Source of the DNA: Tachypleus tridentatus
Lineage: Eukaryota; Arthropoda; Merostomata; Xiphosura; Limulidae
Direction of reading: 5' to 3'
DNA length: 64,000 nt
Assembly: GCF_004210375.1 (NCBI RefSeq)
Contig: NC_134830.1
Coordinates: forward strand, 62,429,576-62,493,575
This document shows, one piece after another, positions 22,867 through 55,479 of this stretch (position 1 is its first letter; each line of letters starts with the position of its first letter). A program made the position numbers and the translations under genes. The notes beneath the pieces are model-generated. The model saw only the letters and a program-made list of their open reading frames with translations. It did no database searches and was not told the origin of the DNA.

Positions 22867-23347
22867 ATGTCTCTATTGAAAAGAAGGGTCAGACTAATAT
22901 GGATGATACTTTTGTTTGTGAGATTCATATCTGAGTCATCTTCCACACAGAAACTTGAAGGGGAAGAGATTAGTAGTAATGTCGACATACAGAACAAAAA
23001 TTTAAATTTTTCTCCTGAACGCAGTCTCGAGAGAAACGTAATAATCACGGGTTTTGATGACGAAACAGTCTTTCATCAAGATGACTACGCAAACTGTTCT
23101 ATTTGTATTCGCAGAGAGATTGAAAGATTTGAACATCTTGAAGCGATCAAAGCAAGAATTTTGAAAAAACTTGGTTTAAAGCAGCCTTTGAATGTTACTA
23201 AGAAGAATACACTCCCTCATAATATACCTATTCACGAAATTCGTAATCAAATAGAATATATTAACAGGTCTGAGAGCGATACCAACGAGGAACAGAAATT
23301 GGATGAAGAAATCTTGCCAGAAAAAGTTATTTCTTTCGCTGAAATTA
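22867..23347 (+). CDS. myo: Gene 1 exon 1: signal peptide and N-terminal prodomain
   Basis: Encodes residues 1-160 plus one base of 161. The start is the first ATG after the TATA box and is followed directly by a signal peptide. The exon ends GCTGAAATTA with donor GTAAGTAT, a near-ideal 5' splice site. The frame runs open only 11 codons past the donor. Sequons occur at NCS, NVT and NRS. The EAIKARILKKL helix corresponds to the alpha-1/latency-lasso part of myostatin prodomains. Confidence 0.92.
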
Positions 23348-29300: not shown

Positions 29301-32300
29301 CAATGTAGATTGTACGATACCTGCCAAAACACAGAAACAGTTGTTAAACTGTTATGTATATATATCTTACTTAATGAGTTTTCTCCATCTTATTCACATC
29401 AAGATTTCTAAAATACGTTTGCAACTTTCTTCTGTTGTTTCTATTATTACAAAACTTTTATCCTACCCAGCTGAAGGGATTTATTACCACAAAGATTGTA
29501 TAAATAATAATGCTGAAACGGTTCTTCAGTTGTAAGCATTTATGAACTTATAAACAGATAAACCAGAGCAAAACATGCATTGTCATTATCTACTCATTAC
29601 CTCCGTTAATTTTTCTTTATAAACGACACATTTATGTGTTTATTAGGAATGACATTGTACTCCGTGTTTCAGTGATATTTGTTAATCATTATCTTTTATT
29701 AGGCGTATTATTGTTTCTTTTTGAACAGCTTCTGAAGGAAAGGATATAATCGCCAATTTGGATAATTTTCTTTCCTTTAAATTTTCGGAGAAGTTGAGGA
29801 ATGGTTACGTTTCTTCAGCTCATCTGTGGCTGTTTCTTCATGTCAATGAAACGATGAAAGGAGAAACTTGGATTTACCTTTATAAAGTCAAAAAAGAAAG
29901 CAATGTGGCTACTTACATAAAGGTTAGTTGAAATGTTACCTAAGGGAATATTGCCTTCATTAGTTTATTTTAGGTCTGATTTACCAATAATTCTAGTTTA
30001 CACTGATGGATTATTTTAAGACTTGCGGTGATATTTTTACATCAATAACAGCCAATGTACAAAATGATGTTGATGGATTTTGCTACGTTCTAAGCAGTTC
30101 TTGTTTACTTTAATCAATGTACAAAATGATGTTGATGGATTTTGCTACGTTCTAAGCAGTTTTTGTTTACTTTAATCAATGTACAAAATGATGTTGATGG
30201 ATTTTGCTAAGTTCTAAGCAGTTCTTGTTTACTTTAATCAATGTACAAAATGATGTTGATGGATTTTGCTAAGTTCTAAGCAGTTCTTGTTTACTTTAAT
30301 CAATGTACAAAATGATGTTGATGGATTTTGCTAAGTTCTAAGCAGTTCTTGTTTACTTTAATCAATGTACAAAATGATGTTGATGGATTTTGCTAAGTTC
30401 TAAGCAGTTTTTGTTTACTTTAATCAACTCTTCTCAGTTATATTTCTGCTCTTTTCTGAAAACAAAATTTAGACAAATGGCATTTCCTCATTCTTCCATC
30501 CAACAACCACAAAACATGTTTTAACTTATCCCTAGGTTTCAGTTTACTACAGTTGTTTAGAAGGGTGTTGTTCTTTGTCAGTGTTCTCTGGAGCAGGATA
30601 ACAAATTAAACCAAGAACAGAAGGTGATGTGTATGGTTAATACCTATTGTATATTAAGCCTATATTCTAACAGCAAGTTAAGTACATATCGAATAAAATT
30701 TAACTTTGAAATAATGGCATTTGTCTCATAATTTATAAGAAATAAGTTTGTTTGTTTGCTTTTGAATTTCGTGCAAAGCTACACGATGACTATCTGCGCG
30801 AGCCGTCCCTAATTTAGCAGTGTAAGACTAGAGAGAAGGCAGCTAGTCATCACCACTCACCGCCAACTTTTGGGGTACTCTTTAAACAACGAATAGTGGG
30901 ATTGACCGTCATATTATAACGCTCTCACGGCTGAAAAGGTAAGCATGTTTGGTGCGACGGGGATGCGAACCCGCGACACAGTTTCCTTTTATAACACAAA
31001 TATGTTTTAAGATACAAACATAAAAACAATGCAATTTATAATAAATAACAGTTATTACTAATAGTTGTAACAAATGATGGTTTATATACAACAGTTTTAC
31101 AAACTTATCAACAATATAGAGTCTTATATACGATCTAGAACAAATTATTTTTTAACGATTCAGGTCCACGACGAACAAATTAATTCCGAGTTGATATTGT
31201 TACACCTCGCTTAAGCTAGCTAGTTCGATCGGTCTCACACCGGTTAAAGCTCACTTCTTCCCGACGGAAATATTTAATGTCCTCGTAGAAATAATAATGT
31301 CCGAATAATTTACTGAAGTTGAACAGTTTGTAATGTTCGAAATCTATAAACGTTCCTAGTAGAATTCTGTAGTTTTCTGATTAATAGGCGTTAATCAGAA
31401 TTATAGCTTCCAAGGCCTATAATACACTGACTGTAGTTGTCCAATGATATTCTCTTATTCTCTCTGCTCGTCGGTTTTTATATACCAATCTAGCGTTTTC
31501 TAGAATTTTCAACAATGATCTAGCGCGTTTTCGTAAACAAATACTGCTGATTTTCACTTTCAGGAATTTTTTACAAATTTTAGAAGATGCGGGACTTGCA
31601 CAATAAACAGTTAAGAATGTACGTCACATGTAAAAAAGAAAACTAAACAGAGACAAGTGTAGGCACTAATATGAAAGTACAACAGAAAATCTGTTACACC
31701 ACCAGTTCAACTATCAATGTTAAAACAGTGAACATTATTTAATGTATATAGTGATCACCTATTTAAAAAATAGATGTAAAACATTGAATAATAATAATTA
31801 TACATGTATGTGTTTGTATAACAACAGGCTTGGCATGACCAAGCGCGTAAGGCATGCGACTCGTAATCCGAGGGTCGCGGGTTCGCGCCCGCGTCGCGCT
31901 AAACATGCTCGCCCTCCCAGCCGTGGGGGTATATAATGTTACGGTCAATCCCATTATTCGTTGGAAAAAGAGTAGCCCAAGAGTTGGCGGTGGGTGGTGA
32001 TGACTAGCTGCCTTCCCTCTAGTCTTACACTGCTAAATTAGGGACGGCTAGCACAGATAGCCCTCGAGTAGCTTTGTGCGAAATTCCAAAACAAACAAAC
32101 AAACAGTATAACAACAAGGCTATGAACAATATTGTGAATAGCAAGCCAATGTTGTCCAATATAATACACAAAGTAAAGTAACTCCGAAAGGAATATAAGA
32201 TAAGATAAACCATGTACAAATCATGTTGAAATTATTGATATCAGGCTCACAGTCGCTCCCCCCAAGCTGAAACTGAAAATAATAATGTTAATGTTGTTTC

Positions 32301-35300: not shown

Positions 35301-38300
35301 GCATATAGCGCAGCTATAATGTAAAGAATTATTAACCGAAGGGACCGGCATGGCCAAATGTGTTAAGGCGTTCAAGGGTCGCGGGTTTGAATCCTGATCG
35401 CACCAAACATGCTCGCCCTCCCAGCCGTGAGAGCGTTATAATGTACGGTCAATCCCACTATTCGTTGGAAAAAGAGTAGCTCAAGAGTTTGCGGTGGGTG
35501 GTGATGACTAGCTGCCTTCCCTCTAGTTTTAACTGCTAAATTAGGGACGGCTAGCGCAGATAGCCCTGGAGTAGCTTTGCGCGAAATTAATAAAACAAAA
35601 ACAAAACAATATTAACCGGAACTTTTAACGAACCGTATTTTTATTACGTTTTACGCCAATTTTTTTTTTGTGGTTTGTCATAAGTGTGCGATTAACTACC
35701 AGTTTTAAAGCTGTTAATAAATATCCAAATTGTAATCTATTCCTTCATAACTATGTTTTAGAGATGTTTATATACATATATATATATTATATGTAATTGT
35801 TAATGTTTTAGTCCTCTAACCGGAGAATACCGGTTAGCTTTAATTTCCTAACTTTAACTTGTTAAACTGTTTAGTGAATATCTTCAAAAACAAATTTATT
35901 GAAACTTTAAAACAAGCTTTAAGAAATTTAAGCATTTTTCTCTTAACTGTCCAAAAAAAATTTCCAATTTCAAGAGCGCATATGCTACTGTATATATAGT
36001 ATCATATGAATACCATTATTCTATCATCGTAGACCGCTGTCGAAGAGGCCTTTCGCCCCTATCGGTCATCAAACTGACTAGATTAAACAACCCAAGGTTA
36101 TAGATGAAACACTATAAATATTAGTCATAAGGTTAAAGGGTAGATAAAACGCCGTTAATATTAATTATAAAGTTAAATTATATAGATGAAATACTATTAA
36201 TATTAGTCATAAGGTTAAGTGTTAGATAATACGCTGTTAATATTAATTACAGAGCTACTTTATAGATGAAACGTCAACAGTATGAGTCATAAAGTTACAG
36301 ATGGAGCACTGTCTATAATAATTATAGGGCTGAGATGTAGATGAAACGTTATGAGAGTTAATCATAGAGCTAAGGTAATGATGAAGTGCTATTAATATTA
36401 ACCATAGAGCACAACAGAAATTCTTGATTCTATTTTGCAATGTAATGAATTACTTTGTTTTCCACAGTATCGTACAAAAAGAATCCACACAGTGAAGCCC
36501 CAAAGCAGATGGGTGAAAATTAATGTTCGTGGATTAGTGACAGAGTGGATTTTTAACCCTGAATTAAATCATGGGGTTATGGTGTACTGCTCTAACCAAA
36601 ATGGAGGCAACATACCTTACACACGCCCAAATCACGATATACATTATCAGGTGCGTTGATCATGGACTGTTAATATAGTGATAAATAAATCAGGCGAAAT
36701 TGTTTAAAAAAATTAAAACCAAAAGCCATGCCACTAAATGTCTTATTTCTATAATATACAACATTCAATCTTTACGTTGAACAATTTAGGGCTACTTGAC
36801 AAATGTATTGTCTCAAGCTTTTCTCAGTATTAATTCATTAACGTCAGCTAAGCCTTGATACTAAACGATAAAAACCATACAACCGAACGCTTTCGAAAGC
36901 TGGACCTTTCTTATTTAGGGTCAGACTGGTTAAACTTTTTAATATTTGAGTTTTTTTTTTACTTACTTAACAAACTTATTGCCTTCAAGACATATACAGA
37001 GAAGTATTACTCAAGCGAAGTAAATCGATACGTATAAGTTTATAAGACAACTGAACACCGAGAAACAAGTAAAAAATACTTTTATGAAACGTGTAACTGT
37101 TACTTTTCATTAGTTTGTGTTAAAATGTTCTGAATGTCTATCTTTATACAAATAAAATGTTACAGAATCACAAACTTTCAGTGTATCATCCTTCACGCAA
37201 AATGTACTAGACGCACACCCAGTCATTTCTGTGGAGTTTTTCGCGTTATTTTTCAAATATAAGTGCCTTCAAAAAATCTTTTAATTTTAACATCTTAAGT
37301 TATTGTAACTGAAGATATACCTGAACTCTACTAAAACGCTCGCCAGTATCAAATGCATATGAAAAAGCTGTCTCTGCATTGACTCTCGCATGTCTGTAAC
37401 ATAATAATTTCTTCCTCAAAACGTTTTATTTAAAATTGTACTTCATAAAGATGTTATTGAAAATAGGTTATGTTGAGTGACTGTTTGAAATTAAGCACAA
37501 AGCTACACAAGGGGCTATCTGTGCTCTGCCCACCATAGGTATAGAGACGCAGTGTCTAGTGTGAGACCGAAGACATCCCGCTGTGCCACTGGGGTGGCAA
37601 ATGGTTATAGGCATTTTATCGTAAAACAGGATCAGTGTCCAATTAACAACTACATTAACGTTTTTTAAGATCATCATATAATGGGTTTATGATTTTTTAC
37701 AAGATAATTTGAAACATAAAAGAAATCAACAACATAAACCATTTAAACTATTAGTTTCATTTAATACTTTCGATTCAAGTACGTTCTTTGCCTTGACCCT
37801 TTCACGGACATGCATATATTATCATGTGAGAGTTTGGAGTTTTGTACCTATAAAATACGGCTTGGCATGGTCACGTGACTAGGGCGCTCGACTCGTTATC
37901 TGAGGGTCGCAAGTTCGATTCCCCGTCACACCAAACATGCTTGACCTTTCAGCCGTGGGGACATTTTATTGTGACATTCAATTCTATTATCCGTAGCCTA
38001 AAAGTTAGCGATGAGTGGTGATGACTAGTTGCCTCCAGTCTTTCACTGCTTAATTAGGGACGGCTAGCCCAGATAGTCCTCACGTAAATTTACGTATTAT
38101 TCAAAACAAATCGAGACCTACATAAAGAATTGATATTATTCAAACGTTACCAGTTTCATGTTTGAAATAAGTAATGAAACATTGAAAAGTCTTTTTATTT
38201 TTCCTATGTATCTACAAATAAATCTGTAACTAAAAGTTTTTATTTTTGTAAAGATAGAAATGAAGTAGTTAACACAGTCCATAAAACTGTCAGCTATGGT

Positions 38301-39279
38301 TTGCTGTCTAATTGGATAAATTTCTTTTCTAATATTTCTGAAGGTCTGGTGCGTCTACAAGCAAATCATATTTATGAGCAAATAAACCGGCTTCATGTTA
38401 AAACTGATTCAACTGCAATCCATTGTTTCAGAATTAGAAAACTGTTAAAAATCAAGTGTAAACTGTGAAACATCAGAAAACACTAACATCTTTAAGTGTA
38501 TTAAAAAACCAATCGTAATAGAAATATATATATATGTAAAAAAATTTCTCAACCAAACCAGGTGTTTTTACATATATATTTCTCTACAAGTGGGTTTTAT
38601 CATCACTGATTACAATCGTAATAGGGTGGCCATCATAGTTTAAAATTTTTCAACTGAAGGAACAGGAAACAATATACATATATATTTTTTAAATTGAGCT
38701 AGTTTTACGAATAGAAAAACTATAATATTATCTTTAGCATTAAAAATTTTTAATTCCAAAAACCTATCACATTCTAATTTCCAAAATCAGTAAATAATTA
38801 GAGTATATAGATGAACTTAATCCAATCTTCAGAATTATTGAAATACACAGGTTGAATTAAAACAGAATTATTATTATTTACAGATGCCTTTTATTGAAAT
38901 AAAGACGAACAGAAGGTTTCTTCAAAGGGCTAGGCGCAGTTTTAGTTTTAACTGTTCACCTGATTCGAAAGAGGCACGATGTTGTAGACATCCACTGACA
39001 GTGGATTTCACCGAGATGAAATGGGACTTTATAATTGTGCCCCTTCGCTACCAAGCATATTATTGCGGGGGAGACTGCCCTCCTGCGTTCCTACCTGAAC
39101 ATTTACACACTGTCTTGGCCCAACATGCTGCTGTCGACAGATCGGAGGAGCCTCTATCTCAGTGCTGTTCAGCTAGCAGCTTGTCTCCAATAACCATCAT
39201 TTACCGGGACGAAGCAAAAAATAACTACTTACGCGTCTTGGTGGAAGACATGATTGTAAATAGTTGCAGTTGTTCCTAG
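22867..39279 (+). CDS. myo: Myoglianin / myostatin-GDF11-type TGF-beta ligand (4 exons)
   Basis: Secreted TGF-beta family ligand of the myostatin (GDF8)/GDF11/myoglianin class, expected to signal through activin-type receptors to Smad2/3. Joining 22867-23347, 29729-29922, 36468-36650 and 38884-39279 gives an open frame of 417 aa with consensus splice sites and matching phases (1, 0, 0). Residues 1-25 are a signal peptide (KRR, then a LIWMILLFV core). The prodomain has the family's Cys-x-x-Cys followed by LEAIKARILKKLGLKQPLNV, then VISFAE, then KFSEKL...AHLWLFLHV. RARR (301-304) is the furin site. The 113-residue mature domain has all nine cysteines in myostatin spacing (C, 8 residues, CC; YCGGDC; QCC; CSCS). 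By my arithmetic the exon 3/4 junction (MPFIEI) falls at the same residue and phase as vertebrate MSTN intron 2 (NPFLEV). The mature domain is divergent (K-W-D-F-I-I in place of GWDWII; SASS after the CC pair). This makes a derived paralogue possible. Confidence 0.93.
24640..26200. repeat. Very degenerate tandem-like region
   Basis: Variants of AGGACAATAGAAGTT(G/T)GT recur irregularly every few tens of bases (for example 24700, 25480, 25855, 26045, 26070). This suggests an ancient minisatellite of about 35-45-bp units. Seen by eye only; unit length is not certain. Confidence 0.35.
25902..26005 (+). repeat. S2 SINE within intron 1
   Basis: Forward copy, CCTGCGGACTTATAGCTCTA through TTCATTGTGTAGCTTC; the first bases of the head are lost. 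Confidence 0.7.
26330..28250 (-). pseudogene. CR1-like LINE, internally deleted
   Basis: Read on the - strand from 28250 down: a GDSL/SGNH-like hint (VVHTWSNDVG) from ORF1; an endonuclease segment (NNDILDLLLTSNEE near 27490); fingers (VGQVPENWKLAN near 27090); and GKVLHIRLVK...AEWIEERLDGRKPR...NWINVTSGVPQGS (26800-26650). The sequence then jumps from FRPSLCLIYI directly to the C-terminal RLSYEEKLKSLNFFSLEQ...RGDLFEVFKIL (26620-26520). The catalytic Tyr-Ala-Asp-Asp block is therefore deleted and the element cannot be active. It lies antisense to gene 1 in intron 1. Confidence 0.8.
29729..29922 (+). CDS. myo: Gene 1 exon 2: prodomain arm core
   Basis: Completes residue 161 and encodes residues to 225 (194 bases). 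FKFSEKL followed by AHLWLFLHVNETMKGETWIYLYKV matches the FKFS.K...AQLWIYLR block of myostatin prodomains. Acceptor TTGAACAG, donor AAG|GTTAGT, leaving in phase 0. Contains one sequon (NET). It was not identifiable by length alone; homology and splice phase support it. Confidence 0.88.
30053..30424. repeat. Tandem array of six 62-bp units
   Basis: Six head-to-tail units with exact 62-bp period, starting at 30053, 30115, 30177, 30239, 30301 and 30363. Each begins CAATGTACAAAATGATG. Only about three positions vary (TGCTACG/TGCTAAG and GCAGTTC/GCAGTTT). The uniformity implies recent expansion or homogenisation. The array begins 130 bp after exon 2. Confidence 0.95.
30746..30978 (-). repeat. S1 SINE, 5'-truncated
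   Basis: Reverse copy with intact tail and body. It stops at GGGATGCGAACCCGCGAC, inside box B, and abuts the LTR-like copy. Confidence 0.85.
30979..31698 (-). mobile_element. LTR-like repeat, copy 4
   Basis: Reverse orientation. On the - strand it starts TGTAACAGATTTTCTG (31698) and carries GCAAGTCCCGCATCTTC, GGTATATAAAAACCGACG (TATA), GAAGCTATAATTCTGATTAA, TTTATAGATTTCGAACATTA and GTTTGTAAAACTGTTGTATA. The 3' end is replaced by the truncated S1. Confidence 0.65.
31827..32105 (+). repeat. S1 SINE, full length
   Basis: Forward copy. Head GGCTTGGCATGACCAAGCGC, anticodon-loop region GACTCGTAATCCG, box B GGTTCGCGCCC, tail CAAACAAACAAACA. Good internal promoter boxes. Confidence 0.92.
32663..32944 (-). 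repeat. S1 SINE, full length
   Basis: Reverse copy to GGCCATGCCGGGCC; a few substitutions in box B. Confidence 0.9.
33280..33556 (+). repeat. S1 SINE, full length
   Basis: Forward copy with canonical head GCCCGGCATGGCCAGGTGG; the anticodon-loop region is changed (TTGCAAACTG). Tail ends ACAGACAAACA. Confidence 0.9.
34226..34319 (+). repeat. S2 SINE, fused to S1 fragment
   Basis: Forward S2 (GTGGCACAGCGATACGTCC ... GGTGGGCAAAGCACAAATAA) whose tail is missing and which runs directly into a reverse S1 head fragment. Confidence 0.7.
34320..34396 (-). repeat. S1 SINE head fragment
   Basis: Only the tRNA-like part is present: GGTGTGATGGGTGATTTGAA through CACCTGGCCATGTCGG. Joined to the S2 on its left. 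Confidence 0.7.
34560..34836 (+). repeat. S1 SINE, full length
   Basis: Forward, moderately diverged (CTGACATGGTCAGGTGG head; tail AAAACAAGCAAA). Confidence 0.88.
35341..35612 (+). repeat. S1 SINE, short deletion in head
   Basis: Forward. The head GACCGGCATGGCCAAATGTG is followed by a deletion between the A box and GGGTCGCGGGTTTGAATCC, so the anticodon-like arm is gone. Confidence 0.9.
36098..36415. repeat. Degenerate tandem array, about 40-bp unit, about 8 copies
   Basis: Repeats of the pattern AGATGAAAC..CT(A/G)TTAATATTAGTCATA followed by (A/G)GGTTAA. The last unit ends about 50 bases upstream of the exon 3 acceptor, so the array borders the branch-point region. Confidence 0.75.
36468..36650 (+). 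CDS. myo: Gene 1 exon 3: C-terminal prodomain
   Basis: Exactly 61 codons, phase 0 at both ends, acceptor TTTTCCACAG and donor CAG|GTGCGT. Encodes residues 226-286. VKPQSRWVKINVRGLVTEWI, then ELNHGVMVYC, matches the GIWQSIDVKTVLQNWL...NLGIEI block of myostatin. The frame would begin with Tyr-Arg-Thr-Lys. No alternative frame fits both splice phases. Confidence 0.88.
37484..37597 (-). repeat. S2 SINE
   Basis: Reverse copy, tail GAAATTAAGCACAAAGCTAC, head complement CCGCTGTGCCACTGGGG. Confidence 0.85.
37858..38111 (+). repeat. S1 SINE
   Basis: Forward copy with head GGCTTGGCATGGTCACGTGA and box B AGTTCGATTCCCC; the body has a small deletion. Confidence 0.88.
38511..38625. repeat. Palindromic AT-rich element flanked by a short direct repeat
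   Basis: GAAATATATATATATGTAAA at the left faces TTTTTACATATATATTTC at the right with a 22-base loop. The unit is flanked by CAATCGTAATAG at about 38511 and 38614. It ends about 260 bp before exon 4. It could be a small transposon-derived hairpin or part of a Penelope-like element (the - strand has CAGTGATGATAAAACCC). Confidence 0.5.
38884..39279 (+). CDS. myo: Gene 1 exon 4: furin site and mature ligand
   Basis: 131 codons plus TAG. Residues 287-304 hold MPFIEIKTNRR and RARR (furin). Mature residues 305-417: C310, C319-C320, C347, C351, C380-C381, C414 and C416 form the cystine knot plus the extra pair typical of the myostatin/activin/TGF-beta group. The segment ARCCRHPLTVDFTEMKWDFI is the clearest match to myostatin's RCCRYPLTVDFE.FGWDWI. 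The usual Pro-Thr after the CC pair is Ser-Ala. The chain ends at the last Ser after CSC, as in myostatin. The acceptor precedes the first codon exactly, so the ATG here is internal, not a start. Confidence 0.95.
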   Translation: MPFIEIKTNRRFLQRARRSFSFNCSPDSKEARCCRHPLTVDFTEMKWDFIIVPLRYQAYYCGGDCPPAFLPEHLHTVLAQHAAVDRSEEPLSQCCSASSLSPITIIYRDEAKNNYLRVLVEDMIVNSCSCS

Positions 39280-40795
39280 TTTAACAAGATCTCTTCGCGT
39301 TAATTAAATTTCATGAAAAGAAACGAAATAAGAAAAGTTAAATTCCTTGAACACAAAGAAAAATCACAGTTAATTGTAAGCATATGCAATAGTTACAACC
39401 GAAAATATACAGGATTATTAATATATAAATTGCCATAAAAAAGCTTTGAAAATCGTGCTTTGACAGAACTATTTATGTTATCGTTGAGACTACCACTGCA
39501 AGTGAAACTTATTATAATATTTGTGTAAGTTTAAAATAATGTGACATTGTACAGGATGTGGAGTAGAACAGTGAGGTTAATTCATTTATTTACCATTTTC
39601 TAGTTTTGTTTTAATTAAAAAACACATCATGATCACACGTACTTAATAATGTATAATTAAACGTTAAGAGTTTATTTTATCTGTGATAGCTTGTGAGGTT
39701 CGTAGAGATTCAGTGACTGCAAAGATTGGTCAACCGAGGACAAATCTCGGAATAATACTTATTATAAATTTAATCATTCAGCTGAATTATTCATATGAAC
39801 ACAAATAAATCCTATTAATCCAAACTTGCAAATCGAATACCGCAAGTGTATGTCAGATAAAAATAAAAATTAGTGTGTTTTTTTCAGAAATATCAAATTA
39901 TCATTTCAGCAAAATATACATTTTTTATATGTAAGTATACAGTGAAAAAAAGAAATATGATGCAGCCATGATGTAAAATATGATTGAAGAGAAAGCGATT
40001 TAGTCAGATGTACAAAACAAACGACGGGCTTCAATCCGTAATCTTAAAAGGAATTTAATTTCTAAATGCTTTTGTAAAAGTTGTATAAAAATATGATTCA
40101 AATCCTCGTTAGGACTAGTAATATTTTCACTTATATATTTTGTATACAAACACACAACTAAGGGTTCTGTGATTTTTCTTACCAGATGTTATTTCTGTTT
40201 AAGCTTTTTGTGTCTGTCATAAGTCAGTAAAATAAATAGTAAAAGAAAATTGGGGGTCTTCTAGTTAAAAACGGCATGCCTATTTTATTTGTGTATACAA
40301 GAATAAAAAATTCTTCTTAGTGAAATCGTTCTTGAAGGTATAGTAAACACGTAACGCACAAAAACAAAATTTTAACCTACACCTGACGCTTCACAATAGT
40401 ACAAAATTATCTACAAACTTCATTCACTTTTTCGCACAATTTCTAGCTAACACACACAATTGTCGAAAGTACTACACAACTATTGTTTTATAATCAAGCG
40501 AGTGAAATAGTTATTATTATTTAACAAATGAATTAACCACTTTAAGAACATAATGGGTAAAAACTTTTGTGAAACATTAAATTTGAGATATTTATAAATA
40601 CAAGATTATCCGTTCATCTAACCGCTGTTTGTTTCAAAACATTAGATGTTTATATATGTTACAAAGGTTGCTGCTGTTGTTCACTGAGTTTTAGAACATA
40701 TTTTTGTCTTGTTCTTTACACCGCTCATTTTAAAATCTAAACATCCCATAATTCCAAAATCTAGAAACTTTAATTAGTTTGCTAATTACACTACT
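39280..40795 (+). terminator. Gene 1 3' flank with candidate polyadenylation signals
   Basis: No coding. AATAAA hexamers occur at about 39804, 40230 and 40303; none can be preferred from sequence alone. Otherwise no feature recognised. Confidence 0.35.
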
Positions 40796-41255
40796 CGTGC
40801 CGAACTTAGAAAGTTTCTAATTATACCGTTTTAGAGTTACTTTCAATGTCTAGAAAGTTTCTTTATTACACTGTTATATAACTACTTTCAATGTCCAGAA
40901 AGTTTTTTATTATACTGTTATACAGCTGCTTTCAATGTGTAGAAAGTTTTTTATTACACTGTTATATAGACGCTTTCAACGTCTAGAAAGTTTTTATTAG
41001 ACCGTTAAATAGCTACTTTCAATGTCTAGAAAGTTTTTTATTATTTCGTTATATAGCTACTTTAAATGTCTAAAAAGTTTTTTGTTCACAGCTTTTATAC
41101 AGCTACTTTGAAAGTTTAGAAAGTTTTTTATTACACTGTTATACAGCTAGTTCCAATGTCTAGAAAGTTTTTTATAACATTGTTTTTACAGCGACTTAGA
41201 AAATCTATAAAGTTTTTATTACATCATTATACTGTTACTTTCAATGTGTAGAAGT
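40796..41255. repeat. Tandem array, about 44-bp unit, about 10 copies
   Basis: Units begin TTTCAATGTCTAGAAAGTTT and continue TTTATTACACTGTTATATAGCTAC. Starts at 40841, 40886, 40930, 40974, 41017, 41061, 41107, 41151, 41195 and 41239, so the spacing is 43-46. Moderately diverged, older than the 62-bp array. Confidence 0.85.
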
Positions 41256-41261
41256 TAAATA

Positions 41262-41900
41262 AATGTCGATATATATTCAATTTATGATACTTGCCAAAAA
41301 TCTTGGTACACACAGTTTCTTTTTAATACAAATATATGTAATATACACAAAATAATATAATTTACAATAACTGTTCTCACAAATAATGAAGCATGTACAA
41401 AAGTTTTACAAACTTACAAACAATTTCAAGTCATGTTTCTAATCGAGGGTTCACGTCAAGCGATTTAATTTCGAGTTTATGTAGATAAAATTCACTCAAC
41501 AGGAAACTAGCTAGTTCTTATTCTTCGTTCTTCGCTGATCACACGTTGAGTTTTTTCACCGATGAAGTTATATAATATCTTCGTAAAAATACCAAAGTCC
41601 GATGTGAATCTGCTGAAGTTAAATGGATCATTTTGTTCGAAATATCATAAACGTCCCTATTCAGATACCTGAAGTTCCCAGTTAATAAGCGTTAATCACA
41701 GTTATAGCTTTCAAAACAAACCAATGATATATACTGTCTCTTGGGGCGTCGCGTTGATTACATTTATAGCCGTGACGAAAGTTTATAGAAATTTAAGCCT
41801 GCATAACAATGTATACGATACACTAGTGTTTACGTACACACATGCATTCTTGATTCTTAGAAACGAGAATCTTTTACAGTTTTATGAATAGACCAATTAA
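41262..41900 (-). mobile_element. LTR-like repeat, copy 5
   Basis: Reverse copy, 5' part missing. On the - strand it has GAAAGCTATAACTGTGATTA, CGAACAAAATGATCC, GTTTGTAAAACTTTTGTACA and CCAAGATTTTTGGCAAGTATC. It immediately follows the 44-bp array. Confidence 0.6.
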
Positions 41901-42242
41901 CTTTTGGGCTACCTTGCAAAACATACATGTGCAGCGTATATTACAGGTTTGATTGTATTAAATATAACAGTCGAAACCTAAATGAAAAATTCATTTGATT
42001 GTAAATATGATATGAATAGATTCCTAACTTTGAGATACCATATGTAATCTGAGACTTTTCATGAAGTATCTACATCTGTGACCTCAACTGTAGTTCTAAA
42101 TTAGTTTTTGAAAGAGGAATTTTCATGTAGTTGTTTTTCACAATAGCACGAGCGTGAGGAAAGTCGTATGTGAAACGTTCAAATAAGTATACATTCCCTA
42201 CTCACTTGAATTACCCAAGGCGACTAATTGGAGTCTGAAAAT

Positions 42243-42350
42243 ACGATAGAACAGAAGGTAAGTCTTCAACTTACAACGCTAAAATCAGGGGTTTATTTCT
42301 CCTTAGGTCGACACAGTAGATAGCCCGATGTGGCATTGAAAATATTTTCT
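42243..42350 (+). repeat. S3 SINE
   Basis: Forward copy: CAACGCTAAAATCAGGGG, TAGATAGCCCGATGTGGC; the head is damaged. Confidence 0.75.
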
Positions 42351-42744
42351 TCCATCTACAAAATAAAGCGAATCATATATTTAAAGAAACATCCACCATC
42401 ATGTTATAATAATCGTCAGGGCCAACTTCAATTATTCAATTTATTTTAACTTATAACACTTAAAACATTCATATCAGAAACTTTTTTTACGATTTTGGAA
42501 AATCGGTATTTTAGACACTTTAACTTGTGTCATTAAAACAAAAACTTGCGATCTCCTTTATGGACTGTAGTCTCGATCTGTGATTAGAACAATATTTCCA
42601 GAGCAGTCTTTTGTAAGTTATGTTAACGTGTTAAACTCTGTACATTTAATTTCGACCATTACTGTGCTGGTCTGCTTAAAAACTCTGGTTTTTAGTGTCA
42701 TTTGAATGTAAAAAAAACATATTTATTAATGACACTGATTCTAG

Positions 42745-42857
42745 TTGTTAGTTTGAAATTAAGCACAAAGCTACTCAATGATCTGCCCAGCACGGGTAAC
42801 GAAATCCGGTTTCTAGCGGTGTAAGTTCGCAGACATACCGCTGTGCCACTGGGGGGC
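42745..42857 (-). repeat. S2 SINE
   Basis: Reverse copy with intact head complement ACCGCTGTGCCACTGGGG and tail; a short deletion in the middle. Confidence 0.85.
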
Positions 42858-43055
42858 AACACTGCCTGTAAATTTTATTAGTAATCTACATTTGTAGAAT
42901 ACATCATACATTTTCAAAAACAAGAAAAGATTGCTTACGTGGTTTGTCAGTTCACTTAAGCCCAATAAACATGAAAATGTAGTTATTTTAAGGCAAGCCT
43001 GTAAGATAATGGTTAAGAGCAAGAGTCTTTCGACCTACAAAGAGGCATAACTTGT

Positions 43056-43321
43056 TTATTTTTTTAATTTCGCGCAAAGCTACCGAGAGCTATTTGCATC
43101 AGCTATATCCCCATAATTTGGCAGAGTAAGACCAGAGGGAAGGCAGCTAGTCATCACCGCCAGCTCTTGAGCTACTCTTTTACCAACGAATAGTGAGATT
43201 GAGCGTCACATTATAACACCCCCACGGCTGAAAGGGAGAGCATGTTTGGTATGTTGGAGATTCAAACCTGCGACCTCAGCTTACGAGTCGAGCTTCTTAA
43301 CTACCTAGCCATGCTGTGCTC
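43056..43321 (-). repeat. S1 SINE, full length
   Basis: Reverse copy. Body carries a short deletion at the CATCACC...CCGCCA region. Head complement ends CTAGCCATGCTGTGC. Confidence 0.88.
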
Positions 43322-43723
43322 GAGGCATAACTCTAGATGCTTTTCTATCTGAATTATTGTAAATAAAGATTGTTTCTTTGACCTGATTGATGTTCAAAAA
43401 TATAACATCAAAGTTAATAATATGTGGCAATCAAGAATGCATAGGCCTGTCACTGTGAAAAACTATGGAGAACAAAAATTGAAAGATAATTGGTTCAAGC
43501 TAGTCAAACGTAGGTCATTATAGCTTCTAACGTTTGGCTGACTTTCTCAAAAGTATTTTGAATTAATGTATTTTCAATTGTAATGTACCTAAATTAAAAT
43601 CTGCGCGTGCTTGTACTAATATACACACCTTCAAACGCACGTACCCAAGTTTGAACCTGCCCATGCATGTACCAATATACACCTTTAACCTGATCTCGCT
43701 AGGTCACGGATTAAAGGTTTGAG

Positions 43724-43838
43724 CCCCTGCTAGTACAGCGGTATGTCTTCGGGTTTGTAACGCTCAAATCAGGGGTTCGATTCCCCTCAGTAGGCTCAGC
43801 AGATAGCCCGATGTGACTTTTCTATAAGAAAACATATA
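43724..43838 (+). repeat. S3 SINE, best copy
   Basis: Forward copy with CTGCTAGTACAGCGGTATGT, intact box B GGGGTTCGATTCCCC and tail TATAAGAAAACATATA. Confidence 0.9.
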
Positions 43839-44246
43839 CAGCAAGTTTGGTATCAAGTCGCAGAGTATAATTTTAATTTAAGTCTATTAATTAATTTTAA
43901 TTTTACAGTGTGTTTTAAAATAATACACTGAAGTATTGATTATTGGGTTTCACGTGGTATGTTGAATACAGCACTAATTCAAATTAGATGTTTGTGACAT
44001 TAAAATACGAAGTCTATAGTTAATTAGTAATTAGGGAATTAAGTTACCGGTACTGACAAGCTAGAATGTAAAACAAGAAATTCATATCTTCTCTATTTGT
44101 TGAGCTGTGCCTTATGTACTGAATCAAACACAGAGGAAAGAGGTGAGATGGAAATGGTACGCTACATATTCTTAATACTTATACAGCAATCAGTTTACTT
44201 TGACAGTAAAGTGATATAGAAATGGAAAAATACTTGCTTTCTTTAG

Positions 44247-44364
44247 AAGTTCCCCGATGAGAGAGTAGTAAGTTTACTAAATTATAACGCCAAAATCTGG
44301 GATTCGATCCCCGTGGTGGTCAAAGCAGCAGCCCGGTGCGGCTTTGCTGTAAAAAACAACAAAG
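44247..44364 (+). repeat. S3 SINE
   Basis: Forward copy, box B GGGATTCGATCCCCG; A-box region diverged. Confidence 0.8.
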
Positions 44365-44612
44365 CATTTAGATTTGATTAGAAGACACAAATAGGATCAA
44401 GGCAACAAAATTTTATAAGAAATGACAAAAGATCATTTATGAACCATTTTTATCTGGCTTTTCGTTCACCGCCGATGTTTCATCTCTACAGAGAGCAACA
44501 TTATTACTCGTAAGGCATCAACCTGCTCATAAAAAAATTGTTGAACTTCCAATGGGATATTAAAGGTAAAAAGAAAAATGCAAATAAAAGTGTACCTAGT
44601 GTTTACTTATTT

Positions 44613-44881
44613 CATGGCCAGATGGTTAGGGCACTCCACTGCCCATCTGAGGGTCGCAGGTTCGAATACCCGTCACACTAAACATGCTCGCCCTTTCAGC
44701 TGTGGTGGGATTACATTGTAACGGTTAATCCTACTATATGTTGGTGAAAGAGTAGCCCAAGAGATGGCGATGGGTAGTGATGACTAGCTGCCTTCCCTCT
44801 AGTCTTACACTGCTAAATTAGGGACGACTAGCACAGATAACCCTTGTATAGTTATGCGCGAAATTAAAAAAAACAAACAAA
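44613..44881 (+). repeat. S1 SINE, full length
   Basis: Forward copy starting CATGGCCAGATGGTTAGGGC; the anticodon-loop part reads TGCCCATC rather than CTCGTAA. Tail AAACAAACAAAC. Confidence 0.9.
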
Positions 44882-45113
44882 CTTATTTCATATTTAATTT
44901 TTGAATAGAAATATAACACGACAAAAATGGATTACCACGCAGGTGTAACATTAGGGTTCCAAAGAGAACACTCTAAATAAATTTGTAAATATTTAAATTT
45001 GCCAATGCATTCGTGAAAGTTTTAAATTTAGACCATGCAACTGCATTACATTCAGCAAATTCCTTAATAGGATACTTAACAAACTCAAATTACTTCTTTA
45101 TCTTTTTTCTTTA

Positions 45114-45380
45114 GTTTGGTTTGTTCTGAATTTCGTGCAAAGCTACATGAGAGCTACCTGCGCTAGCCGTCCCTAGTTTAGCAGTGTAAGACTAGAGAGA
45201 AGGCAGCTAGTCATCACCACACCCCGCCAACTCTTTGGCTAGTCTTTTATTAACGAATAGTGGGATTGATCGTTACATTATAACGCCCCCACGATTGAAA
45301 GGGCGAACATGTTTGGTGTGTTGGGAATCCGAACCCGTAACCCTCAGATTACGAGTCGAGCGCCGTATCCACCTGGGCCT
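45114..45380 (-). repeat. S1 SINE, full length
   Basis: Reverse copy. The head complement is shortened to CCACCTGGGCC (the GCCATGCC part is lost). Confidence 0.88.
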
Positions 45381-45457
45381 TTACTTAGATTAGAATTTCA
45401 TATCAATTTAGTGTTAAAATTATTTTATTAGCCTTATAAAACCATTCGTTTGATCCT

Positions 45458-45588
45458 TGTGTATGTGTTTGTGTGTTTTCTTATCGCAAAGCCGGATCGG
45501 GCTATCTGCTAAGTTTACCGAGGGCAATCGAACCACTGATTTTAGCGTTGTAAGTCCTTAGACTTACCGCTGAACCAGCGGAGGACTT
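45458..45588 (-). repeat. S3 SINE
   Basis: Reverse copy, tail TGTGTGTTTTCTTATCGCAA, head complement TTACCGCTGAACCAGCGGAG. Confidence 0.88.
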
Positions 45589-45640
45589 ATCCCAGTGTAA
45601 ATGATGTTTAAACACAAAATCTAATGTGTTATATCAGATT

Positions 45641-45755
45641 TATTTTTGTTTGTTAGTTATTAAGAGCAAAGCTCACAATGGGCCGTCTCTGCTCTGCCAA
45701 TCGCGGGTATCGAAACATAACTTTAGCATTATAAACCCTCTGACTTATTATGAAT
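45641..45755 (-). repeat. S2 SINE
   Basis: Reverse copy, CAAAGCTCACAATGGGCC, GCGGGTATCGAAAC; head degraded. Confidence 0.7.
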
Positions 45756-46171
45756 AACTGAGAGGTCTCAGGTTTTATCTGTCATTGTAAAAATAAATTA
45801 CAACATTAATAACTTCAGAAATGCTAACATTATTATTCAAGGCATTAGTTGTGATTATGCAAGACTGATAATTTTTTCAACTATTTATGATCTAACAGAG
45901 AGCGATATCATCGTAAATTTCTGAAAACTATAAAGTACATCAGGACCGATCTAACGAAGTGAAATTACAATGATGACTATCAAGAAGTTAAAAAACAAAA
46001 CAACAACGGTGACCTCACCCATAAAAATGTTCCTTTTAAGGAAATCAACCATAACAATTACAAATTTCCAACAAATGTGTTTTAACTAACTTACTGATAT
46101 CCTTACTATTTCACTATAGAAATTAAAACAAACATTACACAGGTTAGTTAACCTATTTAGCTATTTTTTGG

Positions 46172-46292
46172 TGACTTACAGTGGCTCAGCGCTAAGTCCA
46201 CAGGCTTACGACGCTAAAATTCTGGTTTACATACTCGTGGTGGGCAGAATTCAGATAACTCACTGTGTAGTTTTGTCTTTAACCAAAAACAC
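46172..46292 (+). repeat. S2 SINE
   Basis: Forward copy, CAGTGGCTCAGCGCTAAGTC ... CTCGTGGTGGGCAGAATTCA. Confidence 0.75.
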
Positions 46293-46394
46293 CAACACCA
46301 TACTGGTTCATCGAAGCTTGTGACAACATAATACACATAATTTACCTTTATAATTCTCTCACCCCACTCTTTAATATATATACGTTTTAATCGA

Positions 46395-46666
46395 CCCGGC
46401 ATGGCCAGGTGGGTAAAGCACTCAACTGGTAATCTGAGGGTCGCGAGTTCGAATCCCCGTCAAACCAAACATGCTCGCCCCTTCAATTGTGGGGCCGTTA
46501 TAATGATAACGGTCAATCCAATTATTCGTTGGTAAAAGAGTAACCCAAGAGTTGGCGGTGAGCGGTGATGACTAGTTGCCTTCCCTCTAGTCTTACACTG
46601 CTAAATTAGGGACGGCTAGCGCAGATAGCCCTCGTGCAGCTTTGTGCGAAATTCAAAACAAAACAC
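46395..46666 (+). repeat. S1 SINE, full length
   Basis: Forward copy, ACCCGGCATGGCCAGGTGG head, box B AGTTCGAATCCCCG; among the least mutated in the window. It lies 0.6 kb upstream of gene 2. Confidence 0.92.
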
Positions 46667-46881
46667 GTTTTAATTTATTTAGCTCACATTTTTAAACATG
46701 TAATTATGCTATGGTTTTGACGTCACTTTACGTACCTGCAACCACGGTTATCTATAACGATTATTTGTAATATGAAATATATTTTGTCGTGAGACATTGT
46801 ACATTTACACGTTTATTAAGGAGAATATTATTCGAATAGTTACAGATGAAAAAGGTAACAGCAAAAAGAAAAAAAACAGAC

Positions 46882-46969
46882 CTTCTAGAATATTCTCGTT
46901 GATCAAACTGTCAGCTGACGGACGATTAAAAGGAGGCATCATCCCTTGAGGGAAGAAGTCCGGCGCCAT
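46882..46969 (-). CDS. Candidate first coding exon, divergent from gene 2
   Basis: On the - strand an ATG sits in a near-perfect Kozak context (CGTCACCATGGCG, start at 46969). It opens 29 codons, MAPDFFPQGMMPPFNRPSAD then SLINENILE, before a possible splice donor (GAAG|GTCTGT at 46881). The stretch is GC-richer than its surroundings and looks protein-like, with Pro-rich then helix-like composition. If unspliced, the frame continues through a hydrophobic run to about 60 residues from an upstream non-ATG codon. I do not recognise the protein. No second exon was identified to the left. It lies 298 bp from the gene 2 start, so the two could share a promoter region. Confidence 0.35.
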
Positions 46970-47267
46970 GGTGACGGCTGTCCTCAAAGCACGTTGTAAC
47001 TAATAATAATACTAAAAAACAGCACCACTGAGAAGCAGGCCGAGTTAGAAATATTCATTATGTATTTACCTTAGCACGAGTAAAGAGGTGTGTGCGGTCG
47101 AGCTAGAAATGTGCACATGTGGAAATAAAATATGGCTACCTGTTCTTCGCAGGACGGCTTCAGTGTAAACCACAATGAACACTGATTACAACTTGGCCGA
47201 CGATTTCTTATTGGTATCACAGTTTAATACCAGACGCGAAACTATTGTCATTTGATGATCCATCGTC
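46970..47267 (+). promoter_or_regulatory. Candidate promoter and 5' leader of gene 2
   Basis: Higher GC than flanks. A TATA-like AAATAAAATATGG is near 47125. No other core element is certain. The leader would contain the upstream ORF at 47175-47255. Confidence 0.35.
47175..47255 (+). promoter_or_regulatory. Upstream ORF in gene 2 leader
   Basis: ATG at 47175 opens 26 codons ending TGA at 47253-47255, only 12 bases before the gene 2 ATG (47268). If the transcript starts upstream of 47175, ribosomes must reinitiate or leak past this frame. That would lower ligand translation. Confidence 0.4.
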
Positions 47268-47685
47268 ATGAAGTTCGTGGTACTGTTGTTTCTCGCATGG
47301 ACCTGGTTCGATTCCGGGTCGTTAGGTGCTGCCTCTTCTTCCTCTTCATCAGAAAGAAACAACAACTTTAACTCCTCGAACAGTGTTCACCTAAATAGTT
47401 GCCGACAGTGTGTGAGCGTGACTGACCACGAAGAGGCCAGGAGACTTAAAATGGAAGCTGTCAAAAATCAAATTTTGTCCAAGTTGCAGCTCCAAGAAAG
47501 ACCAAACATGACTAACCCACTGCCCCGGAACGTTTTGCTTCAAGTCCTTCAACATACCTATAATCACGACCTAGCTGAGGACTCGTTGCAAGACCAATCA
47601 ATACCGGATGACATAGATGGCATGTCTGAAGAGAAAGATAATTATTACGGCAGAGTGTCTGAAATCGTAGTTTTCTCAGAACCAG
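47268..47685 (+). CDS. Actβ: Gene 2 exon 1: signal peptide and N-terminal prodomain
   Basis: Residues 1-139 plus one base. Donor CCAG|GTAAAT. The start is the ATG immediately before a classical signal sequence, cleavage likely near SLGA-A. Contains NMT and NSS-type sequons and the CRQC pair that in activins links the prodomain. The intron position (after F-S-E-P, phase 1) equals that of gene 1 (after F-A-E-I, phase 1). Confidence 0.93.
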
Positions 47686-50600: not shown

Positions 50601-51934
50601 TTCAAGCACATTTAAACGCGTAGAGCTTGTTCAGTGGCATCGTAACTCAGTCCGCAGCCACTCTCGGCGATCCATGGCCCGACACACTTATCACTAGGCC
50701 ACGCTCATCTCTGTTTCTTCTTTCGGTGATTTATAGCACATGCCTTATAATGTATGAATAAAATTCTATTATTATTATTATTTAAATATATCATACTGAA
50801 ACAAATTAGTGTCAGAAGAAAAGATAGATGATAAAATTATATATATATATATATTTTACAATAGCATCATTAGGTACCTCAAAGAATAATATATTGCAGA
50901 CAGTAAGATTACAAATATTAACTTGAATCTATTGAATATTACACTTCAACTTTAAACTCCAAGTACTGTTGGTTAAAACAACATAAAAATATAAAGACAC
51001 TAAAAAATGCATATTACAAAAATTGCTTATATCTAAGCCTTTGATTCCAGACTGATGATAAACTGTCCCTCAACTTACTCGTCATATTTTCTTTGGTAGG
51101 AGGAAGGATAAATGACTACGTTCTCTTGGACTTCTTCCATCCTGTTCACCGTTCTCCGCAGCGTATACGTGTGACGGCAGCATTTCTGTGGGTTCAGCTC
51201 CGTGCTAACCCATCTTTGACCCAGCTCGAACTAGCGGCACTGGTCAACAGTAGCCTCACTCTTTATGTGTTTAGGGTAGATGAACCTCCTAACGGTACCA
51301 TGAATGCTCTCAAGTACTCCTTATTGGCTCTGAAGCGGATAGAGTCATCTCCTGTGGGGTGGCAGCGACTAGACCTTTATCAGGAAGTTCAAGAATGGTT
51401 CAGGGCTTCCAAGACCACAAAATTCACCCTCCTAGTTGACTGCAATGGATGTAACTCTTCAATAGAACCAGTGTTATTTAGTGGAGTTGTTGGAGTGGAA
51501 GGAACTAACAAGTCGTCAGAAGCGGGAGTCCGACCGTTTTTTCTATAAAGACTGAAACGATACCTCAGCGACGATCTCTGAGATTCACTAAAACCTGTAA
51601 AGCCCACGTGACGAACTGTTGCATGCAGTCGCTTTTAATCAGCTTCAAGAAGCTTGGATGGGAAGACTGGATAATTGCCCCTAAAGGTTACCAGGCCAAC
51701 TATTGCATGGGCCGATGTGGACGGTCCCCGCGTACCCCAGATACATATCCAGACTATTGGTATTACAGCCAAGTGATGGACGAACATCGTCGAAAAAATC
51801 CTTTTGCGTCTATAACCCCATGCTGTGCGCCTACTAAGCTGGCATCCCTCTCCATAATCTATGTAGATAAAGATATGAACATATTCCAGTCGACTTTACC
51901 AAACATGAGAGTCGAGGAGTGTGGCTGTACCTAA
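47268..51934 (+). CDS. Actβ: Activin / inhibin-beta-type TGF-beta ligand (2 exons, one-base frame break)
   Basis: Secreted activin-class ligand, expected to bind activin type II receptors with an ALK4/Baboon-type type I receptor and activate Smad2/3. Exons 47268-47685 and 51100-51934 join in phase 1. This two-coding-exon layout is that of vertebrate INHBA/INHBB. Residues 1-21 are a signal peptide (VVLLFLAW) followed by a poly-Ser stretch. The prodomain shows C-x-x-C, then EAVKNQILSKLQLQERPNMT, then EIVVFSEPG, close to activin's EAVKKHILNMLHLKKRPDVT and EIITFAESG. The frame breaks at 51537-51542 by one base. Beyond it the sequence continues with RSLR (298-301) as processing site and a 116-residue mature domain. 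That is the length of activin-A. It has nine cysteines and the C-x(6)-CC start, GWEDWIIAPKGYQANYC and VEECGCT end typical of activins. Neighbour of gene 1 on the same strand, 8.0 kb apart. Activin-beta versus dawdle orthology cannot be settled here. Confidence 0.93.
48183..48280 (-). repeat. S1 SINE fragment
   Basis: Tail and first part of the body only (TTGAATTTCGTGCAACGCTA ... GGCTAGAGGGGTGGTAGCTG). Confidence 0.65.
48563..48833 (+). repeat. S1 SINE, full length
   Basis: Forward copy; head GGCCTAGCATGGCCAGGTG, box B GGTTCGAATCTCC. Confidence 0.9.
49547..49816 (-). repeat. S1 SINE, full length
   Basis: Reverse copy with a poly-T tail instead of (GTTT)n; box B complement GGGGATTCGAACCCACG is intact. 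Confidence 0.9.
49855..49976 (-). repeat. S2 SINE
   Basis: Reverse copy, tail GTTTGTAATTAAGCACAAAA; head complement with changes (GTCGCTGTGAAACTGGTGG). Confidence 0.8.
50484..50705 (-). repeat. S1-related SINE with different head
   Basis: The tail and first 100 bases are S1-like (AGAATTTCTCGCACAACTAT, AGGACTATGTGCGCTAG). The distal part (GTGGCATCGTAACTCAG, ACTCTCGGCGATCCATGGCC, TATCACTAGGCCACGCTC) is unlike the standard S1 head. It is a diverged subfamily or a head swap. Confidence 0.55.
51100..51545 (+). CDS. Actβ: Gene 2 exon 2, part before the frame break
   Basis: From residue 140: GRINDYVLLDFFHPVH, then RVTAAFLWVQLRAN, then WQRLDLYQEVQEWF, KTTKFTLLVDCNGC and GVRPFF. This is the activin prodomain in order (AEVWLFLKV-like arm, W..D....V..W helix, L.V.C..C, RPF). 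The in-frame reading runs into TAA at 51546-51548 directly after a run of six T. Confidence 0.93.
51537..51542 (+). other. One-base frame break at T6 homopolymer
   Basis: After GTCCGACCG comes six T. Before it the coding frame is position 0. After it all homology (IKTETIPQRRSLRFTKTC, then the whole mature ligand) is in the -1 frame. One extra T would make the exon continuous. Both sides are intact, so a consensus error at a homopolymer is the simplest explanation. A true deletion allele or recoding is possible. The site is not a canonical slippery heptamer in the zero frame. Confidence 0.85.
51542..51934 (+). CDS. Actβ: Gene 2 exon 2, part after the frame break: cleavage site and mature activin
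   Basis: Frame -1 relative to the upstream part, 130 codons plus TAA. RSLR followed by FTKTCKAHVTNCC starts the mature peptide. Cysteines (numbered in the joined protein) are C306, C313-C314, C342, C346, the PCC pair, C414 and C416. The segment between C346 and the CC pair (SPRTPDTYPDYWYYSQVMDE) is the variable wrist region, with the H3-like helix. APTKLASLSIIYVDKD matches activin's VPTKLRPMSMLYYDD. Confidence 0.95.
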   Translation, partial: SIKTETIPQRRSLRFTKTCKAHVTNCCMQSLLISFKKLGWEDWIIAPKGYQANYCMGRCGRSPRTPDTYPDYWYYSQVMDEHRRKNPFASITPCCAPTKLASLSIIYVDKDMNIFQSTLPNMRVEECGCT

Positions 51935-54029: not shown

Positions 54030-54682
54030 AAAATATATATGATCTACAATTATTTTATTAGGAGACAAGATTTAATGGTCATAAGAAAAAAGGTTCTAGT
54101 GGGGTTCAGCTAGTATTCCCTTACTTTAATTAAAGAACTCTCCCCCTTCAAACGGTCATAGGAAAGAGGCTTTAGTTGAACTAGTATTTCTACACTTTAG
54201 TTACAGAGCAACTCTCATCTCCCCTCAATAAAAACTGTGCTACAGTTAGCTAGTCTTAGTTTTGGAGAATTAACTAAAATATGATAAGGTATAAGAATGA
54301 AACTTTTCCATCCATTCAAACATTCAACAGGATATATGTGTGTGCGTCTATATAATGAAAGATAATAGGTGAACTGTGTCCTTGAAATTTTTCGCGATTC
54401 TTAATGCATGGACAGTGTCCTTCGACAGAGAATATTAGTAAATGGGTTATCTTACTGAAATCAATTTCTCGGTAGCAGATAATTTATTATTCATAACAAG
54501 TAATATTATAGCTGACTTTCAAGACACTCACATGTTTATTGATTCACGAAAAGAAATAAAGAGAGACAGAGAAGTAGTACAAAACCTTGCTCTGTCAAAA
54601 TGAGGCTGGGCGTGAGTCACCTATTGCCATGGAGTTTATTAGGGACCGCTACTGTAGGCCATACTACTACTATACAATTGAT

Positions 54683-55210: not shown

Positions 55211-55479
55211 AACAAACTGTTTAAAAACACATTGTTCGTTATTGATTGTTACTACTGCGAAGTTAATTGTTATGGATTATTTACGACTATACAGCTAATT
55301 ATAGAGCACTCATTATCGAGTTGGTTTTGAAACATTTATTAGTATGAAGTTTATTATACACTGCTGCTACTATGGAGAATATTTTGAAGTATTTACTGCT
55401 ATGGAGATTATAGTGGAGTACATACAACTATTATTGAGTTCATTATGGATTGTTACTACTCTGGGTTGATTGTGGAGAA

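Follow-up and report, generated by a model that had tools for sequence, protein, structure and literature searches.

How the activin and myostatin types of TGF-beta superfamily ligand came to be separate genes is, to our knowledge, unsettled. As general background, human GDF11 (12q13) and MSTN (2q32), with their neighbours of the ORMDL, NAB, STAT, GLS and NEMP families, lie on Hox-bearing chromosomes, and the dot chromosome of the fly carries ci. Tight linkage between INHB and GLI genes occurs on human chromosomes 2, 7 and 12, with INHBC and INHBE at 12q13 and INHBB on chromosome 2 (PMC2235844, in excerpt), and Drosophila Mav, Myo and Act-beta are all located on chromosome 4 (PMC10847715, in excerpt). 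Here we describe a myostatin-type (myoglianin) gene and an activin-beta-type gene lying next to each other in 64,000 nucleotides of the horseshoe crab Tachypleus tridentatus (C6:62429576-62493575; contig NC_134830.1), the whole of which is called the window below. An earlier note on this DNA had appealed to the fly and human linkages; the former is documented as it said, and the latter is documented for the INHB genes and taken as general background for GDF11 and MSTN. Shared chromosomes of activin and myostatin in fly and human could be a coincidence of large blocks. The same two families are neighbours at three places in the genome described here, which makes the idea of an old cluster directly testable with existing tick, spider, centipede, mollusc and annelid assemblies.

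Linked myoglianin and activin genes in the horseshoe crab genome

Both genes in the window are on the forward strand, head-to-tail: gene 1 (myostatin/GDF8/11-like, myoglianin) at 22867-39279 and gene 2 (activin-beta-like) at 47268-51934, with 7,988 bp between them (coordinates without a chromosome prefix are window positions). The earlier note had placed them correctly, from the ATG of gene 1 at 22867 to the end of the gene 2 stop codon at 51934, and its family assignments, common strand and spacing of about 8.0 kb were all borne out. A PF00019 (TGF_beta) profile search of the 2.17-Gb genome gave 32 matches. By sequence and tree, four loci are of the myoglianin type (the window, C6:67.37, C12:102.87 and C3:10.70 Mb) and three of the activin-beta type (the window, C6:67.34 and C12:102.79 Mb). 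For three of the four myoglianins an activin gene is found at most 80 kb away, so that the linkage exists in more than one copy. The genes of the pair at C6:67.3 Mb (hereafter C6b) converge (+/-), their 3' ends lying 33.9 kb apart, and so do those of the pair at C12:102.8 Mb (C12; +/-, 79.2 kb apart), whereas the window pair is +/+. Order and orientation are therefore not the same among the copies, and the layout has changed at least once within this genome. Exon 2 of the activin at C6:67.34 Mb, used as a query against the whole genome, detected the three activins strongly; near the C3 myoglianin (C3:10.70 Mb) its 31 matches at E<=0.1 included that myoglianin alone and no activin remnant.

Random placement of four myoglianins and three activins would give 0.0009 pairs within 80 kb, as against the three observed. 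The three linked pairs are related by descent and count as a single event, for which p would be about 7e-5 with the spacing of the widest pair; the chance by position that a given gene lies within 8 kb of another is about 7e-6.

The four exons of gene 1 splice to an open protein of 417 amino acids, all introns being GT-AG by reading. Exon 1 (22867..23347, +) encodes the signal region and the start of the prodomain and ends in a phase-1 intron (33% identity over 99 amino acids to exon 1 of the paralogue at C6:67.39 Mb). Exons 2 (29729..29922, +) and 3 (36468..36650, +) continue the prodomain, with 32.6% identity over 46 and 34.6% over 52 amino acids to similar exons in locus L012, and exon 4 (38884..39279, +) carries the prodomain end, the cleavage site RARR before SFSFNC, the mature domain with its nine cysteines and the stop codon. 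The protein matched the Pfam families TGF_beta (2.9e-21; 3.4e-22 in a separate scan) and TGFb_propeptide (1e-11), and its best match among solved structures was human pro-GDF8 (E 3.1e-46, residues 75-417, i.e. 343 residues); the prodomain is thus of the GDF8 type. Gene 1 grouped with GDF8/11 with support values of 83/97 in the tree used for the approximately unbiased (AU) tests and 99/98 in a second domain tree, both containing sequences added as general background, and of no more than 55/51 in the first domain tree; a tree with gene 1 outside this group was not rejected (AU p 0.107).

Exon 1 of gene 2 (47268..47685, +) also ends in a phase-1 intron and is 48% identical over 100 amino acids to exon 1 of the paralogue at C6:67.33 Mb. 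Exon 2 (51100..51934, +) encodes the remainder of the prodomain and a nine-cysteine mature domain (TGF_beta 1.4e-29; best solved-structure match inhibin beta A, 7.7e-30). Comparison with loci L009 and L011 showed that the reading frame shifts by one base within a stretch of six T (51537..51542, +) before the mature domain and cleavage region, so that in the assembled sequence prodomain and mature domain are not encoded in one continuous frame. The mature domain is of the activin type and grouped with INHBA/INHBB and the two crab paralogues (87/83) in the first tree, which was built without the added background sequences; in the two trees that contain them, no resolved grouping with INHBA/INHBB was obtained. 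The introns of gene 1 agree by reading with those of the C6b myoglianin, phase 1 ahead of exon 2 and phase 0 for the two that follow, and the window and C6b activins each have one phase-1 intron; exon 1 of each C6b gene was located by similarity, the donor site of the myoglianin exon being approximate.

Divergence of the window copies and a probable duplication of the pair as a block

The two window genes are the most diverged of all the copies, and their silent sites are saturated relative to every other copy. Transversions at four-fold sites number 39/76 and 37/70 between the window activin and those of C12 and C6b, and 11/17, 10/19 and 9/16 between the window myoglianin and those of C12, C6b and C3. 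Between C12 and C6b the corresponding counts are 19/103 for the activins (prodomain 15/55, mature domain 4/48; synonymous divergence, dS, 0.76-0.89) and 12/44 for the myoglianins (dS 0.96-1.27), and the C3 myoglianin gave 6/37 against C12 and 13/37 against C6b. At the protein level the C12 and C6b myoglianins are the closest (88% identity vs 78-79%). In the activin tree the window copy falls outside C12 and C6b, and the three form a clade (99/98) apart from human INHBA/INHBB. Both window genes split off before the remaining copies parted, although the myoglianin counts are small.

The early divergence of both window genes, together with the presence of a sister pair 4.9 Mb away along C6, makes it probable in our view that the two genes were already linked when they were duplicated jointly, as one block. 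The locus would be one copy of an old linked pair of TGF-beta superfamily ligands, myoglianin (GDF8/11 type) and activin-beta type, and the block duplication, in chelicerates or in horseshoe crabs, would be later than their separation from vertebrates and earlier than the younger horseshoe crab genome duplications. As regards the mode, a weaker step, a segmental duplication within one chromosome seems the most likely, because the two blocks are still only 4.9 Mb apart on C6. Later whole-genome duplications may then have carried the other block to C12 and C3, where C3 kept the myoglianin only. The window block evolves fast. Three rounds of genome duplication with peaks of transversions at four-fold degenerate sites (4DTv) at 0.39, 0.85 and 1.33 were described for the mangrove horseshoe crab (PMC7210998, in excerpt), and our corrected C12-C6b values of 0.23 and 0.39 are nearest to the youngest published peak.

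A number of results weigh against this history. The silent-site counts for the window myoglianin rest on 16-19 sites, and the branching order of the C3, C12 and C6b myoglianins is not decided by such sites (6/37 for C3-C12 is lower than 12/44 for C12-C6b). In the AU tests, the placement of gene 1, which stands on a long branch, outside all GDF8/11/myoglianin sequences had p 0.107, and the crab myoglianins as one clade had p 0.33. No flanking gene shared between the pairs was found in the stretches compared, 30 kb to either side of the window and C6:67324500-67399000; on C12 the reading covered about 9 of the 79 kb that separate the two genes, and on C3 it stayed close to the myoglianin. Furthermore, a first-round genome duplication followed by chromosome fusion predicts identical saturation.

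Between the two C6 pairs no conserved non-coding DNA was found beyond a shared retroelement, repeats being excluded. This retroelement was considered as a dating mark, since the first introns of gene 1 (at 26207-28404) and of the myoglianin at C6:67.38 Mb contain members of the same family in the same direction relative to the gene (67-81% identity in pieces); by eye the copy in gene 1 is an old reverse-transcriptase-like element. A 417-base query yielded 5,463 candidates in the genome; among the best 40 scored, the 39 besides the window copy were 77-81% identical, and the C6b copy (75%) was not among them. As the simplest explanation is that an abundant family inserted at the two places independently, the mark was dropped. 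Between the C6b genes, open reading frames of at least 110 amino acids included one transposon-like by eye and no recognizable gene; the one that was scanned had no Pfam match.

Alternative origins of the linkage

The earlier note had proposed that the head-to-tail pair keeps the immediate adjacency of an ancestral cluster made by one tandem duplication before the protostome-deuterostome divergence. In part this was sustained. The families are as assigned and both are old; the window genes as a lineage-specific sister pair, which the note had named as fatal to its proposal, were rejected by the AU test (p 0.00108), which also rejected a single clade of all crab activins and myoglianins (p 0.00038). 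The AU-test tree comprised 20 of 28 sequences, two of them added as general background, and the two domain trees left out L014, L019 and L021-L028 (near-copies, partial domains or loci missed by the pattern). The linkage of activin and myoglianin is old, much older than the window pair. The role of the window pair as keeper of the ancestral adjacency was not upheld, its sister pairs being convergent at 34 and 79 kb and the window pair itself being the most diverged.

Origin of activin and myostatin by that tandem duplication, with the close spacing retained in the window and relaxed in other places, is compatible with the block duplication, and we regard it as possible but less likely than not. 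In its favour, the linkage is seen three times in one genome, fly Myo and Act-beta share one small chromosome, the human genes are placed as described above, and the phase-1 intron in the prodomain appears by eye to be at the same position in gene 1 and gene 2. Against it stand the convergent arrangement of the sister pairs and the trees, in which activin and myoglianin were not resolved as mutual closest relatives, as well as the location of other gene families. The marker families of the human MSTN, GDF11 and INHB chromosomes were fixed beforehand, the ORMDL and Gli results being already known at that time. The single ORMDL locus (C6:52.0 Mb) is on C6, C12 or C3, but none of the six NAB loci (C9, C2, C7, C13 and twice C11), the two STAT (C9, C11), the two GLS (C13, C4) or the two NEMP loci (both C19) is. 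Neither are the three best Gli loci (C9, C4 and C8, 82-88% identity; 150 of 1,950 candidates scored), a count which takes in neither the matches of 76-80% (C8, C4, C2) nor the numerous zinc-finger hits of lower identity (42-61%), part of which are on C6, C12 and C3. Only 1/16 marker loci was thus on these three chromosomes, as compared with 19.7% expected by length. The probability of one or none is 0.15 if the loci are taken as independent, so that there is no enrichment and weak linkage is still compatible with the result. Among 28 Antp-type homeobox matches, 26 were on C2, C9, C11 and C19, with one weaker match each on C10 and C3.

The Hox clusters (C9:25.7-36.6 Mb, C11, C2 and C19) share chromosomes with NAB (C9, C11, C2), STAT (C9, C11), Gli (C9) and NEMP (C19), and C9 carries Hox, NAB, STAT and Gli together, in what looks much like the order of things in human, but without activin or myoglianin. 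Human 12q13 and 2q resemble this Hox-NAB-STAT-Gli-NEMP linkage of the horseshoe crab. The pair would have left such a chromosome as a unit, or else the ancestral chromosome was divided; both fit a pair that stayed together. In a fuller history, activin and myostatin would have originated as neighbours early in bilaterian evolution and moved as a unit while their surroundings changed, so that they now stand on chromosomes lacking a Hox cluster, NAB, STAT, NEMP and the best Gli loci in this horseshoe crab, on the Hox chromosomes in vertebrates and on the dot chromosome in flies; the entire pair would later have been duplicated in horseshoe crabs or chelicerates. This seems to us conceivable but rather doubtful. 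Among the titles and abstract openings listed by searches of open-access PMC, none reported an activin-myoglianin gene pair.

The window block could also be a product of the oldest whole-genome duplication that came to lie near its ohnologue on C6 by fusion or rearrangement. Its silent sites are saturated, as would be expected for the oldest round among the peaks in PMC7210998 (in excerpt). In a genome of 2.17 Gb, however, both blocks are on the same chromosome of 170 Mb, at a distance of 4.9 Mb, and a fusion would need luck to bring them so close, which makes this origin somewhat improbable in our judgement. Block duplication of an already linked pair, most likely within the chromosome, is the account that we prefer.

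That the window copies are decaying duplicates or an assembly artefact is unlikely. The frameshift in gene 2 and the long branch of gene 1 would fit such a view. The four exons of gene 1 are nevertheless open and bounded by canonical splice sites, its nine cysteines are present, and the gene looks functional. Gene 2 retains nine cysteines and a mature domain 66-67% identical to those of its paralogues despite saturated silent sites, and its frame changes in a homopolymer, a common site of error; the frameshift is either a one-base assembly error or a recent lesion. Independent joining of two ligand genes by chance is very unlikely: linked TGF-beta genes do occur elsewhere, as with two BMP-type genes 42 kb apart on C9, but the expected number of pairs and the single-event probability given above, together with the same two families on one fly chromosome, speak against it.

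Surroundings of the pair and comparison with known systems

The earlier note had seen no other confident gene between the two ligand genes, and none was recognized in 39280..47267 by a six-frame Pfam scan at E<=0.1, which gave DUF1538 alone (E 0.055, under its cut-off). The gap contains short interspersed nuclear elements (SINEs) and tandem repeats; a tRNA-Tyr call at 43726-43795 was discarded since it appears by eye to be the head of a SINE. An Rfam search of the window gave no match reaching the gathering score. Minisatellite arrays occur at 29991-30486 (spacing of about 62 bases), 36099-36417 (about 40), 40773-41264 (about 44) and 54667-55286 (about 59). The sole host gene recognized within 30 kb on either side of the window, where part of the frames was scanned, is an LRAT-domain gene (PF04970, 5.2e-29) at C6:62507239-62507778 (L039:3664-4203), 25.7 kb past gene 2. 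LRAT loci are on C6, C3 or C12 in six of seven cases (three clustered on C3), a post hoc hint of chromosome kinship, and close BMP-type relatives at C12:94.1 and C3:9.96 Mb (100/100) support C12 and C3 as kin chromosomes.

Other TGF-beta loci were noticed as well. The two BMP-type genes on C9 (C9:116619559-116661919, L006 and L003) are on the same strand and by eye dpp-like and ADMP-like; L003 has a close relative at C8:76.5 Mb (100/99), and L006 is nearest, with weak support (81/60), to a gene at C6:17.8 Mb. Near-identical copies, maverick-like by eye, lie on C2 at 75.77, 75.79 and 54.57 Mb (L018, L019, L027) and at 134.60 and 136.56 Mb (L017, L021) and are either recent duplications or uncollapsed haplotypes. 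GLS is found near maverick-like (by eye) ligand genes at C4:62.2-66.8 Mb and C13:123.4-124.9 Mb, and on C4 also near a Gli match. The coagulin family PF02035, which is not known outside horseshoe crabs, has 19 matches in the genome.

By analogy with their families, both proteins would act as ordinary ligands: they would be cleaved (gene 1 by furin at RARR), form disulphide-linked dimers and bind activin-type type II and type I receptors to signal through Smad2/3. Gene 1 retains the features required for this, and gene 2 retains a conserved mature domain. One conserved pair copied by genome duplication and one fast pair make a natural set of duplicates for studying how related ligands share their roles.

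Gene 1 resembles GDF8/GDF11 and Drosophila myoglianin in the prodomain, the nine-cysteine mature domain, the RXXR site and the match to pro-GDF8. Unlike these relatives it stands on a long branch, and its exon 4 shares 46-47% identity with those of C12 and C6b and 43% with that of C3. Two of its three introns agree with the structure of vertebrate MSTN, and the extra one splits the middle of the prodomain. Gene 2 is like the activin beta/inhibin beta genes (INHBA, INHBB and Drosophila Activin-beta) in its nine cysteines, the INHBA match and the single prodomain intron; it differs in being frameshifted as assembled, and its exon 2 is 57-59% identical to the C6b and C12 paralogues, which are 85% alike. 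With respect to the vertebrate linkage of GLI and INHB (PMC2235844, in excerpt), the horseshoe crab differs in that its three best Gli loci, on C9, C4 and C8, lie apart from activin, and the two systems are alike in that a ligand gene has been kept beside one fixed neighbour through genome duplications.

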